Source of the DNA: Candidatus Stackebrandtia excrementipullorum
GTDB taxonomy: Bacteria > Actinomycetota > Actinomycetes > Mycobacteriales > Micromonosporaceae
Direction of reading: 5' to 3'
DNA: 32,546 nucleotides
NCBI GenBank assembly: GCA_019113825.1
Contig: DXGR01000016.1
Span: 1-32,546 of the forward strand
Below are positions 564 to 8,323 of this stretch, one piece after another (position 1 is the first letter of the stretch; each line of letters begins with the position of its first letter). Made by a program: the position numbers and the translations under genes. The notes under the pieces were generated by a model, which saw only the letters and a list, made by a program, of their open reading frames with translations, was not told the DNA's origin and did no database searches.

Positions 564-2671
564 GATCCGGCTCCGCTGTCCACCAACCGTCGGCATTCGT
601 GCAGCTTTTCGGCAATGTCGGTGTCGTCGGGAGCCAGACCGCGGGCGTGTTCGAGGTCGGCGAGTGCGTTCTCGGTGCGGCCCAGATCGATCGAGACGAC
701 GGCTCGGTTGAAAAGAACTTCCGCGTTGTCGGGCTCCACATCGACAGCGGCGTCCAAATCGGCCAGGGCCTCTACCGGTTGCGACAGTTCGTAGCGAAGC
801 TCTGCTCGCGCCGTCAACGCGCCCACCAGGTCTGGTTGCAGGTCCAGCGCCTTGTCGTAACAGGCCATCGCCTCTTCAGAATGGTCTTTGAGCTGCTGCA
901 GATGTCCGGCGAGGACGTGCAGTTCGGCGCGGTCGGGGTCGAGTTCCATGCCGGCGGCGATGTCGTTTTCCACCTGAACGAGGTCTCCGGACTCCAGTAG
1001 CAGTTCCGCCCGGTTGATATATGCATCCACATTGGTCGGGTCGAGGGCCGTGGTCTCGGCCAGGTCCGCCAACGCGCCCGCGACGTCGCCCACACCGGCC
1101 CGAGTGACGGCCCGGTTGAAGTACGCCTCGGGGAACGGAGGCGACAAACGGATCGCCTCGTCGTAGTCGGCCAAAGCCTCGACGTCGCGTCCCAGTCGCC
1201 GAAGCAGCGCCGCACGGTCGAAATGGTATTCGGGATAGTTCGGGTCGAGATCGATGACCGTGTTGTAGTCGGCCAGTGCCTCTTCGACCCGTTTGAGACC
1301 CGCCAGTACCTGCGCTCGGTTGTACCGCAGTACCGACCGGTGTAGCGCGTGGACATCGGCGTCCAACGCGTTGTCGAGCCGGTGCAGGCCGTCCTCGACC
1401 AGTTCCAGCGCCCGTTGCGGGTCGCCGAGGTGAAGCTCGATCAGCGCCAAACCGTTGCGGTAGAACGCAGAGTGGAACGCCCGCGACGCCTCGTTCGGGT
1501 CGAGCGAGGCGATGGCGATCGCCTGATTGATCCAACCCTTCGCCACGGTGTCGTCGCGTTCGTCCTCCTCGTGGTGCCGGGTGTACAGCATCGCGGTGGC
1601 GTAGGCCGCCTGCTGATGCACTGCGGGGGAGATGCTCGTGGCCCGCGCCTCGTTGTAGAGCACCTCTGATTCGGCGGCCCGTGCCAGCGCCGCCAACGAC
1701 GTGGTCATCTTGGTGGTGAACGCCCACCACTGTGCCGGTTCTTTCTGCGCGGTGACGTACCGGCGGCCTCGCACACCCAGATCGACGGTGGCGTCGTAGA
1801 ACCCCGAATCGATGCAGTGGTCCAGTGCGAACCGTAGAGCGGACACGCCTGCACCGTGAGGGTCGGTCCCATGTTCCCGGTGATACGGGACCGCACCGAG
1901 ACGGTAATTGAACTCGGCGTCGGCCAATTCGTCGGCGCGCTCGTCGTGCCAGGCAGCTCGCGTTGACGCATCGGCCTCCTCATAGGCGGACAGGAGACGG
2001 GGATCGTCGGTCAAGCCGTCCAGTTGAACGAAGCGACGGGCCGCACCGGAGGGTGCCGCGTCCGATCCGGTGCGGTCCGGTTCGTCGACGTCGATGCGCT
2101 CGGCGAACCGTTTCAGCGCTTCGGGAAGCCGTTCGGGCATTTCGGTGACCGGCTCGGAAAGTTCGTCGTAGCCGGTGCACACGACCATACGGATGTGTGC
2201 CGGGTCCAGTCGTCGCAACAGGACGGCGAGGAGTTCGGCATCGCAGGGGTCGGCGTGGTCGGCGTCGCGCACCACGAGACAGGCGGGGGCTTCCTGGGGG
2301 CGTTCATTGAGGAACGCGGTCATGCCGTGCGCCAACCGGAGAGTGCGCAGTCGGGAGTAGAACCGGGTGCGTTCCGACGGAACCGCCAGGGAGGTCAAGG
2401 TCTCTTTGCTGGGCTCGACCAGGTTCCGAAGCTGCGGATTGATCGTCAGCAGGGTGACTTCGTGAAGCCTCACGACCTCCGGTTTGGCCTCCCAGGTGTC
2501 GGGAACGGTGCGGGCGGCGAGTTCACCCCCGAAGGTGTAGGGGCCACGCAGTCTGCGGTGGGCGCTGACCGGCTCGAGGGTGAGCAGATCGGGCAGGTTG
2601 AGACCGGGCAGTGCGGTGTCGAGGTCTTCGCGCCGGTGAAGACGCAGCCACAGGTGCTGAGGTGTGGTCAT
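560..2671 (-). CDS. TPR protein with Walker-B-like segment, RiPP-operon component
   Basis: A 703-residue cytoplasmic protein. The N-terminal ~230 residues are not a clear known domain but contain CLVVRDADHADPCDAELLAV (131-150), which resembles the Walker B region of STAND/AAA-type ATPases. No P-loop is visible, so it may be a degenerate ATPase fold. From about residue 330 to the end the sequence is helical, with at least six tetratricopeptide repeats, for example ALADYNTVIDLDPNYPEYHFDRA and ALADYDEAIRLSPPFPEAYFNRA-type units (quoted separately). TPRs normally scaffold protein-protein contacts, so it could present precursor peptides to enzymes or be a catalytic protein of unknown type. Its ATG overlaps the TGA of the protease gene (ATGA), and its own stop overlaps the reductase start in the same way. 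Function is unproven. Confidence 0.75.
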   Translation of the reverse strand: MTTPQHLWLRLHRREDLDTALPGLNLPDLLTLEPVSAHRRLRGPYTFGGELAARTVPDTWEAKPEVVRLHEVTLLTINPQLRNLVEPSKETLTSLAVPSERTRFYSRLRTLRLAHGMTAFLNERPQEAPACLVVRDADHADPCDAELLAVLLRRLDPAHIRMVVCTGYDELSEPVTEMPERLPEALKRFAERIDVDEPDRTGSDAAPSGAARRFVQLDGLTDDPRLLSAYEEADASTRAAWHDERADELADAEFNYRLGAVPYHREHGTDPHGAGVSALRFALDHCIDSGFYDATVDLGVRGRRYVTAQKEPAQWWAFTTKMTTSLAALARAAESEVLYNEARATSISPAVHQQAAYATAMLYTRHHEEDERDDTVAKGWINQAIAIASLDPNEASRAFHSAFYRNGLALIELHLGDPQRALELVEDGLHRLDNALDADVHALHRSVLRYNRAQVLAGLKRVEEALADYNTVIDLDPNYPEYHFDRAALLRRLGRDVEALADYDEAIRLSPPFPEAYFNRAVTRAGVGDVAGALADLAETTALDPTNVDAYINRAELLLESGDLVQVENDIAAGMELDPDRAELHVLAGHLQQLKDHSEEAMACYDKALDLQPDLVGALTARAELRYELSQPVEALADLDAAVDVEPDNAEVLFNRAVVSIDLGRTENALADLEHARGLAPDDTDIAEKLHECRRLVDSGAGS

Positions 2672-3864
2672 CGGGATCCTGCCTTCGGTTGAGAGGAAAC
2701 GGTTCGGTTGAGTCTGCGTTCACGAAGACCCAGAAGTCCGGCGACAACGAACTGGCCGACGATCAGGACGGCGACGACGACGCTGTCGAGGAGCAGGGGA
2801 AGCGGCGCCTGCTCGATGATGCGATCGACCACTTCACCGACGACGAACACCAGGCTCGGGACGACGACGTACCCGAGGCTGAAAATCATGACGGCGTATC
2901 CCAGAAGTAGAAGCCAGGAGTACCAGCGAGCGGCGCGTCGATCGGTTTCCGTCGCCGAGATCGGTTCACCGACCGGGCGGCCGAACAGACGTCGAAGCCG
3001 ACGAAGGAGAAGGTCTCGGGAGGTCGCGTGAAGGTTCTTACAACCCAAGACGGTCACGGTCAGGTAGTAAAGATCGGTGCGCAGGAAGAAGTAGCACTGC
3101 CATAGGATGCGCATCGCCGTTCCCAGCGCCAGCGCCATGCTGACACCGGCGATGAGTCCGCCGGTCGACGCAGCCACGATGATCAACAACGCCGTTGCCG
3201 TGAGGTCGCTGATGACGCCGGCCAGGATCGGAACGTACCGCTTCCCTCTCGGCACGCTGACCAGACCGTCCATCGAGGTCTCGAAGACAATGAAGTAGAA
3301 CCGCCGACTGACCCTCAACCGTGATTTCAGGCCGAGTTTGCGGCCGGCCAACGCGTGGGCTCCCTCGTGGAGAAACAGGAAGGGAAACTGTCCCAGAAAG
3401 AGAGTCAGCATCACCACGATCAACGACGGTGTGTAGAAAGCGTGTGAATAGTGGGGAATCAGATCGGGTCGTTGCGTGAGTACGATCCCTGCTGCAACGA
3501 CGATCAGCGTGACCGCGGCCAGGCCCCATCGGGAGAACAACGCCGCTCCCAACCGTTGCCAACGGACGGGCTCTGCGGTGGTGACCTCCGTGTCGTCGTC
3601 GGCGAGGAACTCCAGTTCCTCCAAGGTCTCCAGGAAGTCACTCATGTCGACGGTTTCGCCGTAGGCCTCGGCGTACCAGGCGGCGGCCTGCTCAGGTGTG
3701 TCTCCGTCGGCGAGGCGCTTCAGCAACTCCGCGCCGTCTCGGGGTAGGTGAACGTAAGCGTCGATGTCGGGGCGGCCGACGGTCATCTCCTCGCCTTCGT
3801 CCAAGAAGGTCAGATGATGAAGCTTGACCGGGCGTTCCAGAACAGTCGGGTCGACAGTGGGCAT
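2668..3864 (-). CDS. Membrane M50-type zinc protease with N-terminal PqqD/RRE-like domain
   Basis: A protein of 398 residues. Residues ~8-90 have the pattern of PqqD-like RiPP recognition elements: a VGRPDIDAYVHLP strand segment, the helix GAELLKRLADG, then AWYAEAYGETVDMSDFLETL. The remainder is polytopic, with about six hydrophobic segments and an HExxH zinc motif (HEGAH, 166-170) in a membrane helix, followed by MDGLVSVPRGKRYVPILAG, as in peptide zinc metalloproteases of the M50/YydH type. The RRE-like part could bind the constant leader of the six small peptides just upstream, and the protease could cut them at or in the membrane. The start at 3864 is chosen over 3924 because an AAAGGA ribosome-binding site sits 6-7 bp upstream. 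First gene of the three-gene ATGA-coupled operon. Confidence 0.85.
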   Translation of the reverse strand: MPTVDPTVLERPVKLHHLTFLDEGEEMTVGRPDIDAYVHLPRDGAELLKRLADGDTPEQAAAWYAEAYGETVDMSDFLETLEELEFLADDDTEVTTAEPVRWQRLGAALFSRWGLAAVTLIVVAAGIVLTQRPDLIPHYSHAFYTPSLIVVMLTLFLGQFPFLFLHEGAHALAGRKLGLKSRLRVSRRFYFIVFETSMDGLVSVPRGKRYVPILAGVISDLTATALLIIVAASTGGLIAGVSMALALGTAMRILWQCYFFLRTDLYYLTVTVLGCKNLHATSRDLLLRRLRRLFGRPVGEPISATETDRRAARWYSWLLLLGYAVMIFSLGYVVVPSLVFVVGEVVDRIIEQAPLPLLLDSVVVAVLIVGQFVVAGLLGLRERRLNRTVSSQPKAGSR

Positions 3865-4097: not shown

Positions 4098-4199
4098 TTA
4101 AGCTGCGACCGGGGCGGTGCTGCATTCGCCGGCGTAGAGGGGCTGGGCGGCGCTGGTGAGGCGGATGGTCTCGGTCTTACGGATCTGGATCTTCTTCAC
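4098..4199 (-). CDS. RiPP-like precursor peptide 1
   Basis: A peptide of 33 residues, last of six tandem paralogues on the transcript. It begins (from GTG) VKKIQIRKTET and continues with IRLTSAAQPLYAGEC (residues 12-26); the private tail is STAPVAA. It is the only copy with Ser rather than Gly right after the conserved Cys. The GTG start at 4199 is supported by an AAAAGGA site 7 bp upstream and by alignment with the paralogues. Codon choices in the constant part match precursor 4. The conserved N-terminal part is presumably the leader read by the RRE-like domain of the protease; the tail, possibly with Tyr22 and Cys26, is the presumed product. The modification is unknown. Confidence 0.85.
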   Translation of the reverse strand: MKKIQIRKTETIRLTSAAQPLYAGECSTAPVAA

Positions 4200-4232
4200 A
4201 GGTTTATCCTTTTCATACAAGGTTGGGCGGTA

Positions 4233-4252
4233 CCGGAATCGGGCGATTCCGG
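4233..4252 (-). promoter_or_regulatory. Intercistronic hairpin between precursor genes 2 and 1
   Basis: A perfect 9-bp inverted repeat (4233-4241 with 4244-4252, only 2 nt between arms) lies in the 98-bp gap between precursor genes 2 and 1. There is no U-tract. It may be an RNA-stability or processing element. Confidence 0.35.
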
Positions 4253-4297
4253 CCATACGGATCGTGGTGAAGTCGGTCGGGCAGACCGGTTGTCCAC

Positions 4298-4414
4298 TTA
4301 CGCGAGGACGACGCTTCCGCCGCCGCCTCCGCCGCCGCATTCGCCGGCGTAGAGGGGCTGGGCGGCGCTGGTGAGGCGGATGGTCTCCGTCTTACGAACC
4401 TGGATCTTCTTCAT
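4298..4414 (-). CDS. RiPP-like precursor peptide 2 with heptaglycine tail
   Basis: The longest paralogue, 38 residues. The shared part reads MKKIQVRKTET, then IRLTSAAQPLYAGEC; the tail is seven glycines followed by SVVLA. The glycine run is coded by GGC/GGA triplets (about 4315-4337), a repeat prone to slippage that may explain the longer tail. The start at 4414 has an AAAGGGA site upstream. The constant part matches precursor 6 (Val at position 6) in codon choice, yet its 5' flank is a near copy of the flank of precursor 4, so the gene is a mosaic. Confidence 0.85.
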   Translation of the reverse strand: MKKIQVRKTETIRLTSAAQPLYAGECGGGGGGGSVVLA

Positions 4415-4486
4415 GGTGTTTCCCTTTCGGATGGCTGGGGCGGACGAGGGCACGTACACCCGTGCCCGCGTCCACCATTGACAACA
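4415..4486 (-). repeat. Precursor-flanking repeat, copy 1
   Basis: A 72-bp block immediately upstream of precursor 2 that matches 4759-4830 at 66 of 72 positions by direct comparison. It carries the ribosome-binding site and a 7-bp hairpin (4448-4454 with 4461-4467, loop TACACC on the plus strand). It probably arose by tandem duplication or gene conversion. Confidence 0.85.
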
Positions 4487-4510
4487 ACGGTCGGACGACC
4501 GCTGCTCGTT

Positions 4511-4612
4511 TTAGGCGAGCTCGGCCGGGCCGCCGCAGTCTCCGACGTAGAGCGGCTGGGCGGCGCTGGTGAGGCGGACCGTCTCGGTCTTACGGATCTG
4601 GATCTTCTTCAT
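4511..4612 (-). CDS. RiPP-like precursor peptide 3
   Basis: A peptide of 33 residues: MKKIQIRKTETVRL, then TSAAQPLYVGDC, and the tail GGPAELA. It alone has Val instead of Ala after Tyr22. The ATG at 4612 has a GGAAG site upstream. The gap to precursor 4 is only 44 bp, the shortest in the array. Its Val12 codon and neighbouring bases match precursor 5. Confidence 0.85.
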   Translation of the reverse strand: MKKIQIRKTETVRLTSAAQPLYVGDCGGPAELA

Positions 4613-4656
4613 GCTGCTTCCATCCCGGTGGTTTCGAAGGTGTCCCGCTGTTCGAT

Positions 4657-4758
4657 TTAGGCGATCTCGACGGGGGTGCCGCAGTCGCCGGCGTAGAGGG
4701 GCTGGGCGGCGCTGGTGAGGCGGATGGTCTCGGTCTTACGGATCTGGATCTTCTTCAT
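4657..4758 (-). CDS. RiPP-like precursor peptide 4
   Basis: A peptide of 33 residues: MKKIQIRKTETIRL, then TSAAQPLYAGDC, with tail GTPVEIA. The ATG at 4758 follows an AAAGGGA site within the duplicated 72-bp flank. The tail resembles that of precursor 5 (…PVEVA): Gly-rich start, Pro, an acidic residue, then an aliphatic residue and a C-terminal Ala. Confidence 0.87.
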   Translation of the reverse strand: MKKIQIRKTETIRLTSAAQPLYAGDCGTPVEIA

Positions 4759-4830
4759 GGTGTTTCCCTTTCGAATGGCTGGGGCGGACGAGAGCACGTA
4801 CACCCGTGCCCGCGTTTACCGTTGAAAACA
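4759..4830 (-). repeat. Precursor-flanking repeat, copy 2
   Basis: Second copy of the 72-bp block at 4415-4486 (six mismatches), directly upstream of precursor 4. Its hairpin is shortened to a 5-bp stem (4794-4798 with 4805-4809) because one G is changed to A; the loop sequence is unchanged. Confidence 0.85.
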
Positions 4831-4849
4831 TCGCCGTCACGACCGGCGA

Positions 4850-4957
4850 TTAAGCGACCTCGACGGGGATACCGCCGCCGCAGTCGCCGGCGTAGAGCGG
4901 CTGGGCGGCGCTGGTGAGGCGGACCGTCTCGGTTCTACGGATCTGGATCTTCTTCAC
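4850..4957 (-). CDS. RiPP-like precursor peptide 5
   Basis: A peptide of 35 residues from a GTG start: MKKIQIRRTETVRL, then TSAAQPLYAGDC, with tail GGGIPVEVA. It alone has Arg for Lys at position 8. The GTG at 4957 is decided by a very strong AAAGGGGGTGA ribosome-binding site and by alignment to the paralogues. A 200-bp gap separates it from precursor 6. Confidence 0.85.
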   Translation of the reverse strand: MKKIQIRRTETVRLTSAAQPLYAGDCGGGIPVEVA

Positions 4958-5103
4958 GTTGATTCACCCCCTTTACGGAAACCGTGGACGGTGGCGGTGA
5001 GCGTGCGTCGGGGCCGGGCCTGCCTGCAATGGCTGAAGGTCGGCAGGCGAACCCACGTTCACCGGTGTCGTCCGAATAGCGTGAGTCGGAGAGCACCGTC
5101 TAC

Positions 5104-5149
5104 GGGCACGGCCGATACATCCACAGTGCATCGGTTTGAGCCGGTGCCC
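5104..5149 (-). promoter_or_regulatory. Intercistronic hairpin after precursor 6
   Basis: A long imperfect hairpin 8 bp downstream of the precursor 6 stop. The outer stem GGGCAC (5104-5109) pairs with GTGCCC (5144-5149), and an inner stem pairs CCGAT with ATCGG (5130-5134). The same GGGCAC/GTGCCC closing stem occurs in the 72-bp flanking repeat. No U-tract follows, so processing or stabilisation is more likely than termination. The remaining gap, 4958-5103, shows no further precursor. Confidence 0.4.
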
Positions 5150-5157
5150 ATGGGCTT

Positions 5158-5253
5158 TTAGCTCAGGTGGGTGCCGCATTCGCCGGCGTAGAGCGGCTGG
5201 GCGGCGCTGGTGAGGCGGATGGTCTCCGTCTTACGAACCTGGATCTTCTTCAT
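5158..5253 (-). CDS. RiPP-like precursor peptide 6, first of the array
   Basis: The shortest and promoter-proximal paralogue, 31 residues: MKKIQVRKTET, then IRLTSAAQPLYAGEC, with the short tail GTHLS, which lacks the C-terminal Ala and the acidic residue of the others. The ATG at 5253 follows an AGGAG site 7 bp upstream. It faces the divergent SARP gene across about 300 bp, so the array promoter should lie in 5254-5557. Confidence 0.85.
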   Translation of the reverse strand: MKKIQVRKTETIRLTSAAQPLYAGECGTHLS

Positions 5254-5557
5254 CGACCGCTCCTGTTTGTCGGATGAACGCGTGTAGGGGGCGTAACCCG
5301 ATGCGTTCTCCGGACAGTGTGTTGTGCGTCATCCTCATTCGGTCTTCGTTTGGTCCTCATTACCGTTTCGGCCCAACCCGATCGAGTGAGTGGTTGGCCT
5401 GAAGTGCCAAACGTTTTGTCTGGACGGATGCGGTAGGTACAACCGATTGTCCGACGTACGCCGACGCTCAGTAACGGTAGAAAAGAGATGTTGCGCCGGG
5501 TTCACCACAAGCGTTACGGCGCTTGCTGTTGGAGCACGATCCTGAACTGAGGTTACA
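5254..5557. promoter_or_regulatory. Divergent control region of peptide array and SARP gene
   Basis: This 304-bp spacer separates the first precursor (minus) from the SARP gene (plus) and should contain both promoters. Two dyads are visible: an imperfect one at 5370-5378/5392-5399 (GGCCcAACC with GGTTGGCC) and a perfect 6-bp one at 5508-5513/5520-5525 (CAAGCG with CGCTTG), about 32 bp before the SARP start. I could not identify convincing -35/-10 boxes or SARP heptamer direct repeats. Confidence 0.5.
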
Positions 5558-8323
5558 ATGGAGTTTCGGGTACTTGGCAATGTGGAGATTTCAGGCGACG
5601 GGCCGGTCGCCCTCTCCGGGAAACGAGTCCGTGCGCTGTTGGCCGTTTTACTACTCGATCAAGGCCGGACCGTTCCGGTGGCACGCATCGCCGAGGCACT
5701 GTGGGAGGAACCACCTCCAACCGCGGTGCGTCAGGTCCAGCACTGTGTTTCTCTACTGCGTAAGAGCCTCAACGGTTCACAGGTGAGGTTGACTACTGTG
5801 TCGTCGGGTTACCGACTGGACCTGGGAGCCGACGATGTTGTAGATGTGACACGGTTCGACACGCTGGTCGCCCGCGCACGCGAGGTCGTCGCACATGACC
5901 CGGCCGCGGCCGTGGACCTGTGGCGTGAGGCGTTGTCTTTGTGGCGGGGCAGCGCGCTTGCCGATGTATGTCACGCGGATCTGGCGTATCGTGCCGCACA
6001 TCTGAACGAACAGCGCGTTGTGGCGACCGAGGAATGCCTGGCCGTACAGATCGACCTGGGTAGACACCGGGAGGCCATCGCGGAGCTGTCCTCTTTGACC
6101 GCTGCGTTTCCGCTGCGTGAAAGACCTGCGGAACTGCTAATCCGTTCTCTTCGCGCCTCCGGTCGGCGGATAGAGGCCCTGGACAGGTACCGGGCTTTTG
6201 CTGCGCGGCTGGGTGACGAGTTGGGATTGGATCCCGGCGAGGGATTGAAGCGGCTGCATCGCGAACTGTTGCGGGGCGACGACCCGGAGGACGGCACGGC
6301 CGTCGCGTCCTCCAAAGTGGCGTCACTTCCCGCCGGCCCCATCCCCGCCGAACTACCCGGTGACCTGGCCAGCTTTACCGGCCGGACCGCGGAACTGTCC
6401 GAACTGGGGCGGTATGTTGAATCCGGACGCGGTCGGGTCGCGGTGGTGCACGGTATCGCCGGATGCGGTAAGACGTCCCTGGTCGTTCGTCTTGCTCACT
6501 CCCTTGCCGACGGCTTCGGCGACGGTCTGCTGTACGTGAACCTGCGGGCACACGGTCCCGGCTCCCCGATGACGTCTCACGCGGCGTTGTCACAGATGAT
6601 GCGTAGTTTGGGGATGCAACCCGGGTCGCTCCCGACCGACACCGACGAGTTGGCCGGTCGTTTCCGCAGTACGGTTGCCGGCCGTCGTCTGCTCATTGTG
6701 CTCGACGACGCCGTCGATGTGGAGCAGGTGCTGCCGCTGTTGCCGGGCACGCCGCAGAGCCTGGTGTTGGTCACCTCGCGCAGCGAACTTCCCGGTTTGC
6801 TCGGCCGTACGGATGCGTTGTCGCTGCCGTTGGGGCCGTTTACACCCGTGGAGTCGGTGACGTTGTTGCGTACCTTCATCGACGATGCGCGTGCCGACGA
6901 CGAAGGTGGCTTGGCGACCCTGTCCCGCTTGTGTTCGGGGCTTCCCGTGGCGCTTCGGTTGGTCGGGGAACGGCTGCGCCGTCAACACCGTCTCGGCCTC
7001 GACCGGTTGATTGACGAGCTGGCGGGGCCGCGTCGGTTGGATCAGCTCAGACTTCCGGGTGATCCGGGGGTCCGGGCTGCGTTTGAGGCTTCGTACCGAG
7101 CACTGCCGGAGCGGTTGCGCAGCCTGTGGCGGATCATGGCGTACGCCCCGTTGGACACCATTTCGGTCCATAGCGCTGCGAGTTTGGTCGACCTTCCCGA
7201 GGCGCAAGTGGACGCGGCGCTGGAGAAGCTGTCCACGGCGCACCTGTTGGAGGCGACCGACACCGGGGATTACAGGTTTCATGCGCTGCTTCGCATGTTC
7301 GCCATCGAGCGTGCCGCCGAAGAGGACTCCGAGGGATACCGTCACGAGGCGGTCCTGCGGTTGCTCGACCGGTACGTGTCACGGGTCGATGCCGCCTACC
7401 AGGCACTGAGCCCGGAATTTCCGCCCATCAGGCGAGCGGTGGAACCGTCGAGGATGTTTGCCACGAAAGCCACCGCCATGGGATGGATCCACGAGGAGTC
7501 GAACAACCTCATTATGTGCGGCCGTTACGCGGCGGGACACCTACTGCCGCACTGCTGGCAGTTGACCGTCGGTATGACGATCTGGTGGGTCAACCGCGCC
7601 AACCGAGCCGAATGGATCGCCTATTTCCGATCCATGTTGCTCATCACGCAGTCCATGAGAGATAGAGAGGGACAGTGGCGGCTTCATCACGGTCTCGGTC
7701 TCGCGCAATACCTGTCGGGAAATTTTGCAGCGTCGCGAACCCACTTCCGCAAGGCGATATCGCTGACCCAGTTGCGGGGTCGCCCTCTCGACGGGCTGTG
7801 GAGCTATTCGATTCTGGCGGAGTTGGAACTGGAGCATGGCCGTTACTCCGACGCCGGCCAGACCCTCCGTCAGGCGCTTGAACTTCTTCCCGCGCACCGC
7901 AGCCGTCCTCGGCTCGAGGCGACGCTGCAACGTAACGTCGGATACCTGCATTTGAAAACGGATCGCCCGGCCGAGGCACTGGATCCGCTGCGCAAGGCCA
8001 ACGCCCTACTGTCGGGCATCAGCGCCAACGTATGCCGTTCTTATGTGGAGATCGCGTTGGGTGGCGCGCACCAGGCGTTGAACAGGCCGGTGCTGGCCGG
8101 ACGCCACCTGCGTCAAGGGGTTCGTCTGTTGCAAGATCACCACGACCGCAAACTTCGCGGGAACGCCCATCTGCGTCTGGGGGCGTTTCTTGCCGAGCAC
8201 GGTGACGCCGCCGAAGCGCGGGCGCACCTGGAGGTGGTCCTGGAACAGCCGCAGATGCAGAATCCGGATCACGTCGCCGAGGCCCGCAAGATCCTGGCAC
8301 GGTTGGACGGTCGTGACATGTGA
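5558..8323 (+). CDS. SARP/AfsR-family transcriptional regulator with NB-ARC and TPR domains
   Basis: A 921-residue regulator with the classic large-SARP layout. Residues ~1-90 are an OmpR-like winged helix (MEFRVLGNVE start, RALLAVLLLD, ALWEEPP, SGYRLDL). Residues ~95-240 are the bacterial transcriptional activation domain (LWREALSLWRG, LIRSLRASGRRIEALDRYRAF). Residues ~275-560 are an NB-ARC-type NTPase with P-loop GIAGCGKT (299-306) and Walker B RLLIVLDDA. The C-terminal third is TPR-like. The ATG at 5558 follows a GAGG site. Large SARPs activate specialised-metabolite clusters. Its divergent position next to the peptide array makes it the likely switch for that operon, perhaps after sensing a nucleotide or protein signal; that is inference. 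Confidence 0.92.
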   Translation: MEFRVLGNVEISGDGPVALSGKRVRALLAVLLLDQGRTVPVARIAEALWEEPPPTAVRQVQHCVSLLRKSLNGSQVRLTTVSSGYRLDLGADDVVDVTRFDTLVARAREVVAHDPAAAVDLWREALSLWRGSALADVCHADLAYRAAHLNEQRVVATEECLAVQIDLGRHREAIAELSSLTAAFPLRERPAELLIRSLRASGRRIEALDRYRAFAARLGDELGLDPGEGLKRLHRELLRGDDPEDGTAVASSKVASLPAGPIPAELPGDLASFTGRTAELSELGRYVESGRGRVAVVHGIAGCGKTSLVVRLAHSLADGFGDGLLYVNLRAHGPGSPMTSHAALSQMMRSLGMQPGSLPTDTDELAGRFRSTVAGRRLLIVLDDAVDVEQVLPLLPGTPQSLVLVTSRSELPGLLGRTDALSLPLGPFTPVESVTLLRTFIDDARADDEGGLATLSRLCSGLPVALRLVGERLRRQHRLGLDRLIDELAGPRRLDQLRLPGDPGVRAAFEASYRALPERLRSLWRIMAYAPLDTISVHSAASLVDLPEAQVDAALEKLSTAHLLEATDTGDYRFHALLRMFAIERAAEEDSEGYRHEAVLRLLDRYVSRVDAAYQALSPEFPPIRRAVEPSRMFATKATAMGWIHEESNNLIMCGRYAAGHLLPHCWQLTVGMTIWWVNRANRAEWIAYFRSMLLITQSMRDREGQWRLHHGLGLAQYLSGNFAASRTHFRKAISLTQLRGRPLDGLWSYSILAELELEHGRYSDAGQTLRQALELLPAHRSRPRLEATLQRNVGYLHLKTDRPAEALDPLRKANALLSGISANVCRSYVEIALGGAHQALNRPVLAGRHLRQGVRLLQDHHDRKLRGNAHLRLGAFLAEHGDAAEARAHLEVVLEQPQMQNPDHVAEARKILARLDGRDM

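Follow-up and report, generated by a model that had tools for sequence, protein, structure and literature searches.

A putative new class of RiPP operon with a combinatorial precursor array in the Stackebrandtia lineage

In Candidatus Stackebrandtia excrementipullorum, six small precursor genes precede the genes for an M50-type protease fused to an RRE and for a TPR protein, and this combination of precursor, protease and TPR protein is well supported as a conserved system. The system likely constitutes a RiPP class, and our best reading is that of a putative new one which is arrayed combinatorially in the Stackebrandtia lineage. The genes were analysed in a stretch of 32,546 nucleotides, referred to as the window, which is a complete contig and carries a flavin reductase gene at its extreme edge.

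The precursor array and its neighbouring genes

The array consists of six ORFs of 31–38 residues, which are arranged head to tail on the minus strand from position 5253 to 4098. Precursor 1 (5158–5253, MKKIQVRKTETIRLTSAAQPLYAGECGTHLS) was assigned from its ORF, a Shine-Dalgarno reading and homologues in other genomes, and is followed on the same strand by precursor 2 (4850–4957, GTG start, tail ...AGDCGGGIPVEVA), precursor 3 (4657–4758, tail ...AGDCGTPVEIA), precursor 4 (4511–4612, tail ...VGDCGGPAELA), precursor 5 (4298–4414, tail ...AGECGGGGGGGSVVLA) and precursor 6 (4098–4199, GTG start, tail ...AGECSTAPVAA). A previous sequence-only reading had described six tandem genes with a ribosome-binding site each. 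We located all six ORFs with their coordinates and start codons (four ATG, two GTG) and found a purine-rich Shine-Dalgarno-like stretch 5' of every one of them; the tandem arrangement therefore stands, and the strand, which that reading had left out, is the minus strand. All six peptides share the block [MV]KKIQ[IV]R[KR]TET[IV]RLTSAAQPLY[AV]G[DE]C and diverge behind it into the tails already listed in the earlier reading (STAPVAA, seven Gly plus SVVLA, GGPAELA, GTPVEIA, GGGIPVEVA and GTHLS), five of which indeed end in Ala. The 25 nt preceding the start codon are nearly all common to two of the copies, which marks a recent tandem duplication. No second precursor site was found in the same genome, where the best other match had an E-value of 2.68.

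Downstream of the array and on the same strand follow the genes for the RRE-M50 protease (2668–3864, with the ATG ending at 3864 adopted as start), for the AAA-like/TPR protein (560–2671), whose start ATG falls in a 4-nt overlap with the end of the protease gene, and for an accessory flavin reductase (PF01613, 36–596), just past which the contig ends. An AfsR/SARP-type regulator with BTAD, NB-ARC and TPR domains is encoded divergently from the array on the plus strand (5558–8323). The gap between both contains a candidate SARP operator on the minus strand upstream of precursor 1 (5331–5358), consisting of three GARGAY-like repeats with 11-bp spacing. SARPs bind such spaced repeats, and the best 11-bp-spaced triple direct repeat in the corresponding gaps of all five array loci known to us (see below) is GAGGAC-like and begins 105–121 nt ahead of the first array ORF. 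Its score was reached by 1, 8, 26, 0 and 3 of 500 shuffles in the five loci; at 26 of 500, S. albiflava has weak repeats. The pattern of the window, which was defined after seeing it, occurs once in the 32.5 kb and in none of 100 shuffles.

Distribution of the system and evolution of the precursors

Precursor matches with E-values of 0.01 or better were obtained in six of 61 related genomes, including the window's own. Further arrays are present in Stackebrandtia albiflava (G001, six copies), which was placed in the same genus as the window's genome, in Actinorhabdospora filicis (G010, seven copies), in genome G003 (eight copies, one of them eroded) and in Phytomonospora endophytica (G029, twelve copies, one lacking a start codon), and genome G012 contains a single precursor. 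The gene order of all four other arrays is that of the window, with a divergent SARP gene followed by the array and the genes for the RRE-M50 protease, the TPR protein and the flavin reductase. Past the latter, the called genes appear different in the five array regions, as read from the gene starts. Because four other genomes contain arrays flanked by the same genes and the leaders of the window array show a pN/pS ratio of 0.17, the array is not a product of chance.

A wider collection was scanned with a protease alignment (A1) and two short peptide patterns, yielding at least 48 loci; because only two such patterns were used, the scan is not exhaustive, and as the protease served as bait, a precursor lacking one would have escaped detection. 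Forty-two of the 48 scan loci are actinobacterial, and the remaining ones belong to Cohnella, a Bacillota MAG, a Nostoc MAG, a Chloroflexi MAG, a Lysobacteraceae MAG and Tahibacter. The phyla represented beyond the actinobacteria are thus Bacillota, Cyanobacteria, Chloroflexi and Pseudomonadota, with the presence in Cyanobacteria and Chloroflexi resting on MAGs. At least one precursor match is found upstream of the protease in all 48 loci (weakest best i-E 0.079), and all 75 matches with an i-E of 0.5 or better are on the strand of the protease and no more than 1.94 kb upstream. A match to the TPR protein is located downstream in 48 of 48 loci, in some outliers chiefly over the repeats. Ten further loci of the same family (family 1) yielded a precursor in 10 of 10 cases; because one of them (L096) is on the same contig as L064 and was counted once, the precursor is found upstream of the protease at 57 distinct places. 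The sequence-only reading had proposed a RiPP-like array linked to a protease gene, to be abandoned if homologues with such a linkage were lacking elsewhere, and the homologues upstream of the RRE-protease in all 48 scan loci bear it out. Its term "combinatorial" applies to the Stackebrandtia lineage, where five genomes contain arrays of at least six precursors, but not to the family elsewhere: 42 of the 48 scan loci have one precursor (for example MKKIVVRKAGTVRLTSAAASCYCGGTPVLA), three have two or three, and three are the arrays named above.

Gene families were clustered over 49 loci using home-made codon-scored gene calls. Apart from the protease, the TPR protein, the flavin reductase and SARP-type regulators (two clusters with 8 and 7 of 49 loci), no family occurred in more than five of the 49 loci. 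Flavin reductase matches were obtained in 17 of the 48 scan loci and none was seen in the other 31, some of which are incomplete; SARP-like matches were obtained in 12 of 48. At one locus from Actinoplanes regularis (L074:271–5864), the set of precursor, protease and TPR protein lies beside a TfuA-like gene, and its neighbours resemble another peptide cluster.

The linkage of protease and TPR protein was analysed in two surveys, in which absences are not absolute because only the best first-look candidates were scored per genome. In the first survey, covering 150 genomes of the order, 21 places matched the protease profile, 11 of them with at least 438 bits and 10 with 195–276 bits; the profile of the N-terminal domain of the TPR protein matched at 11 places, which adjoin the 11 strong protease hits one to one. 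Among the 61 relatives, 13 strong protease hits and 13 strong TPR-domain hits were paired one to one; a further 12 places matched the protease profile more weakly, and one TPR-domain hit, weak at 47 bits, had no protease beside it. Because five strong places are common to both sets, they add up to 19 distinct ones. The weaker hits represent a second protease clade (10 of 21 places in the 150 genomes, 195–276 bits with profile A3, and 12 of 25 places in the 61 genomes, 59–295 bits), which was not counted as part of the family; none of these places adjoins a TPR N-domain hit. Ten second-clade loci of the same order (L086–L095) showed a weak precursor-like match (i-E below 0.01) in three cases, and a TPR match is located about 5 kb off in one of the ten (L092). 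In L088 and L093, the second-clade protease directly adjoins a ThiF-family protein.

The precursor family was evaluated with a set of 89 precursors from 50 loci, defined as matches with an i-E of 0.11 or better, and with a set of 88 distinct precursors, for which ten precursors were added, duplicates were removed, and three with a leader unreadable to the parser (two intact, one eroded) were excluded. None of the precursors tested matched a model of NCBIfam or Pfam. Leader pN/pS ratios in the five arrays amounted to 0.17 (the window), 0.15, 0.27, 0.46 and 0.25, based on 6, 7, 6, 6 and 10 copies, and to 0.27 over 484 pairs between loci. Purifying selection therefore acts on the leaders. The high DNA identity between the window copies would also suit an array of untranslated DNA or RNA repeats instead of genes, but the synonymous rate exceeds the non-synonymous one in all five arrays, and all 48 scan loci as well as all 10 further loci carry a homologous ORF in front of the protease, which makes such an origin extremely unlikely.

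A threonine at position 15 is present in 86 of the 88 distinct precursors, and 87 of them contain both a Cys and a Tyr behind it in variable order, a count which is partly biased by detection because the search profile contains both residues. The commonest spacings are a Tyr followed by a Cys four residues on (39 precursors) and a Cys directly preceding a Tyr (15 precursors). Of the 89 precursors, 42 end in Ala, compared to 20.2% of 357 called genes, and 16 end in VLA; tails opening with a run of Gly and endings of PVLA or similar recur across the family. The Cys/Tyr pair and the bias for C-terminal Ala or VLA indicate that the tail obeys rules, and the previous statement that the tails differ completely has to be replaced by these family-level regularities. 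Because the poly-Gly runs are encoded by GGN codons, their sequence suggests that tail length may change through slippage.

Several copies deviate from this picture. The only member without Cys and Tyr is a Phytomonospora copy which also lacks a start codon (L039:4351) and looks decayed, and another array copy has an eroded leader but an intact YAGDC motif (L032:10941–10980); judged from their sequences, these copies suggest birth and death of array members. The first array ORF of Actinorhabdospora (L038:4830) and Phytomonospora (L039:4063) is odd, reading MKRITVRRL.PVRLPATA.AIYDGDS.GWPGCDPVFHEPPA, and its tail is near-identical between the two and unlike the other tails. The Nostoc MAG contains three precursors of identical sequence (MKKFVIREVETLRTTAAAAYVCWICSSCW; L079:5177–5648), forming an array without tail variation.

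The RRE-M50 protease and its TPR partner

The protease is predicted to consist of a PqqD-like RRE (residues ~15–85) fused N-terminally to an M50-type intramembrane metalloprotease. Its structural model (pLDDT 91.8) is helical, with three strands and three helices at its N-terminus. In a Foldseek search, the leader-bound lasso RREs TbiB1 and TfuB1 were at the top of 246 matches (TMt 0.65–0.72, probability 0.98–1.00), albeit with weak E-values of 0.2 or worse. A profile search returned TbiB1 first among six hits (E 0.019), and the match to Pfam PqqD was below the cut-off (16.3 vs. 23.4 bits). The RRE fold is a predicted one. The assignment to the M50 (site-2) proteases is based on an HExxH motif (166–170) and a distal Asp as zinc ligand (Asp264) in a multi-helix membrane protein; HExxH, Asp220 and Asp264 are invariant in all 41 aligned proteases (alignment A3, comprising 40 of the 48 scan loci and the window, and excluding close kin, fragments and one row containing a stop). 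The Pfam cut-off for M50 was reached by one of four scanned proteases, a Chloroflexi relative and not the window's, and no solved M50 protease was among the best 50 of the 246 Foldseek matches or among the six profile hits. Distant relatives of the protease were found in 25 plasmid records and in no phage record. The 12 plasmid relatives listed share 32–37% identity and are annotated as hypothetical protein (seven) or without a name (five), and might be members of the second clade.

The TPR protein (model pLDDT 93.9) combines an AAA_16-like N-terminal domain without Walker A motif and a long TPR superhelix, whose best Foldseek match is the TPR superhelix of O-GlcNAc transferase. In the latter, Asn residues of such kind line the peptide-binding groove. 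Asn406, Asn451, Asn519 and Asn655 are invariant in all 33 aligned TPR proteins, and Asn553 and Asn382 are present in 32 and 30 of them, respectively (alignment A2, comprising 32 of the 48 scan loci and the window with the same exclusions as above). None of the 33 sequences contains a Walker A motif. The N-domain represents no family of NCBIfam or Pfam and matches no PDB sequence; AAA_16 stayed below the cut-off in all five proteins tested (E 6.9e-6 to 1.8), covering only the later part of the domain in four of them. Because this is the only match common to the N-domains and no PDB sequence is matched, a reading as FMN-dependent hydroxylase like BhaC1, prompted by PMC11002830, was unsupported and discarded.

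A short precursor, an M50 protease and a TPR protein in linkage also recall the peptide pheromones of the RRNPP type, in which a propeptide gene is paired with an adjacent receptor gene, according to PMC10075063. The M50 protease would then free signal peptides, with the intracellular receptor being either the TPR protein or the TPR-bearing SARP. The protease would thereby correspond to Eep, an M50 protease freeing peptide signals, and the invariant Asn residues in the TPR helices and the presence of a TPR-bearing SARP and promoter repeats by every array agree with such a logic. Nevertheless, we regard it as unlikely. The precursors show no hydrophobic signal sequence when read from sequence, no HTH or other DNA-binding domain was matched in the TPR protein, and the RRE is a RiPP feature. 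Moreover, 6 to 12 different tails per genome are many for one signal, and SARP-like matches are confined to the 12 scan loci mentioned above. A TPR receptor with an HTH or effector domain beside the propeptide, as expected for RRNPP systems, was not found; it is the divergent SARP which combines a DNA-binding domain with TPRs.

Class assignment and proposed mechanism

The system shows the general features of a RiPP locus, namely a short precursor, a conserved leader, a variable core and linked processing genes. No recurring tailoring family was found among the 49 loci besides the accessory flavin reductase, and because no further family exceeds five of these loci, the system may lack a modifying enzyme or exporter, and the term "post-translationally modified" may be untrue. 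The literature searched, beyond which lie most subscription journals, contained no description of the set of precursor, RRE-M50 protease and TPR protein.

The fusion of RRE and M50 protease is not new, since the peptidases of daptides (MpaA/MpaP class, PMC10036551) likewise have an N-terminal RRE joined to an intramembrane site-2 protease; PMC10036551 also describes daptide clusters as often containing several precursors and as occurring mainly in Actinomycetota and in a few Bacillota. The operon could therefore be a daptide-like cluster, or a known RRE-M50 RiPP cluster of another type, stripped of its tailoring genes, and one protease relative indeed matched the daptide HExxH model weakly (E 0.18). 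However, this match reached 10.9 bits versus a cut-off of 300, none of the 88 precursors ends in the Thr characteristic of daptides, and their leaders are unlike ELExMEAP. The decarboxylase, aminotransferase and methyltransferase set of daptides does not recur either, no family beyond the protease, TPR protein, flavin reductase and SARP exceeding five of the 49 loci, whereas the system described here has a TPR partner that looks obligate, and its core contains Cys and Tyr. We consider such a derivation very unlikely.

Membrane M50 proteases also act on ribosomal peptides in epipeptides (EpeP) and pearlins (TglG, TmoG), as stated in PMC10885120, and such an action is predicted here from the genes, with the difference of an RRE fused to the protease. 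In a pearlin-like system, the protease would, like TglG and TmoG, remove residues from the C-terminal end of a scaffold peptide that is used repeatedly. The release of pearlins by M50 proteases (PMC10885120) and the short, conserved peptides would agree with this, but the C-terminus itself is the variable part and no candidate PEARL family occurs in more than five of the 49 loci, making a scaffold function highly improbable. Neither a radical SAM epimerase nor a PEARL family recurs among these loci. These enzymes have defining roles in epipeptides and pearlins, respectively. The lasso RRE proteins TbiB1 and TfuB1 resemble the N-terminal domain of the protease in its modelled fold, whereas the window operon contains no lasso cyclase or lasso-type protease, and no such family recurs among the 49 loci. 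Thr15 resembles, by analogy only, the invariant Thr at position -2 of lasso leaders reported in PMC10885120.

A RiPP-type operon of a class new to the libraries and literature searched is probably the correct reading, together with the following mechanism. The core of the operon comprises the precursor of about 30 residues, the RRE-M50 membrane protease and its P-loop-less AAA-like/TPR partner. The leader is basic (KKIxVRKxxxVRLT) and contains alternating hydrophobic residues; judging from this pattern and the modelled RRE fold, it would become an extra beta-strand of the N-terminal RRE of the protease. The M50 site would then cut near the almost invariant Thr15, probably directly after it, and free a peptide of about 10–28 residues with the Tyr/Cys pair and often an Ala end. 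The TPR superhelix with its invariant Asn residues probably holds the precursor or the freed peptide and may present it to the protease or to a modifying or export step. Tandem duplication and drift of the tails, including the runs of Gly codons, would have turned one precursor into six to twelve in this lineage, and we propose that one machine thus makes a small mixture of peptides. The divergent AfsR-like SARP probably activates the array via the three 11-bp-spaced repeats.

A further step is conceivable but rather doubtful: the Tyr/Cys pair might be the site of the chemistry, as a Tyr-Cys thioether cross-link or a metal- or redox-active pair, formed without a classical tailoring enzyme by the complex of RRE-protease and TPR protein or by autocatalysis, with the flavin reductase helping in some clusters. 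The system would then be a new RiPP class of at least five phyla, which has become a combinatorial library in Stackebrandtia and its kin.

With a core of three genes and a defined substrate of about 30 residues, the system is small and tractable. Should it prove to be a RiPP pathway, it would represent an additional class which is not flagged by the libraries searched (NCBIfam and Pfam). It raises the questions of how a Cys/Tyr peptide is treated by an RRE-bound M50 protease in a system with no recurring tailoring enzymes, and of which role a P-loop-less, STAND-like TPR protein plays as its constant partner. The arrays represent a natural path to peptide libraries, by drift of the tails on a fixed leader.
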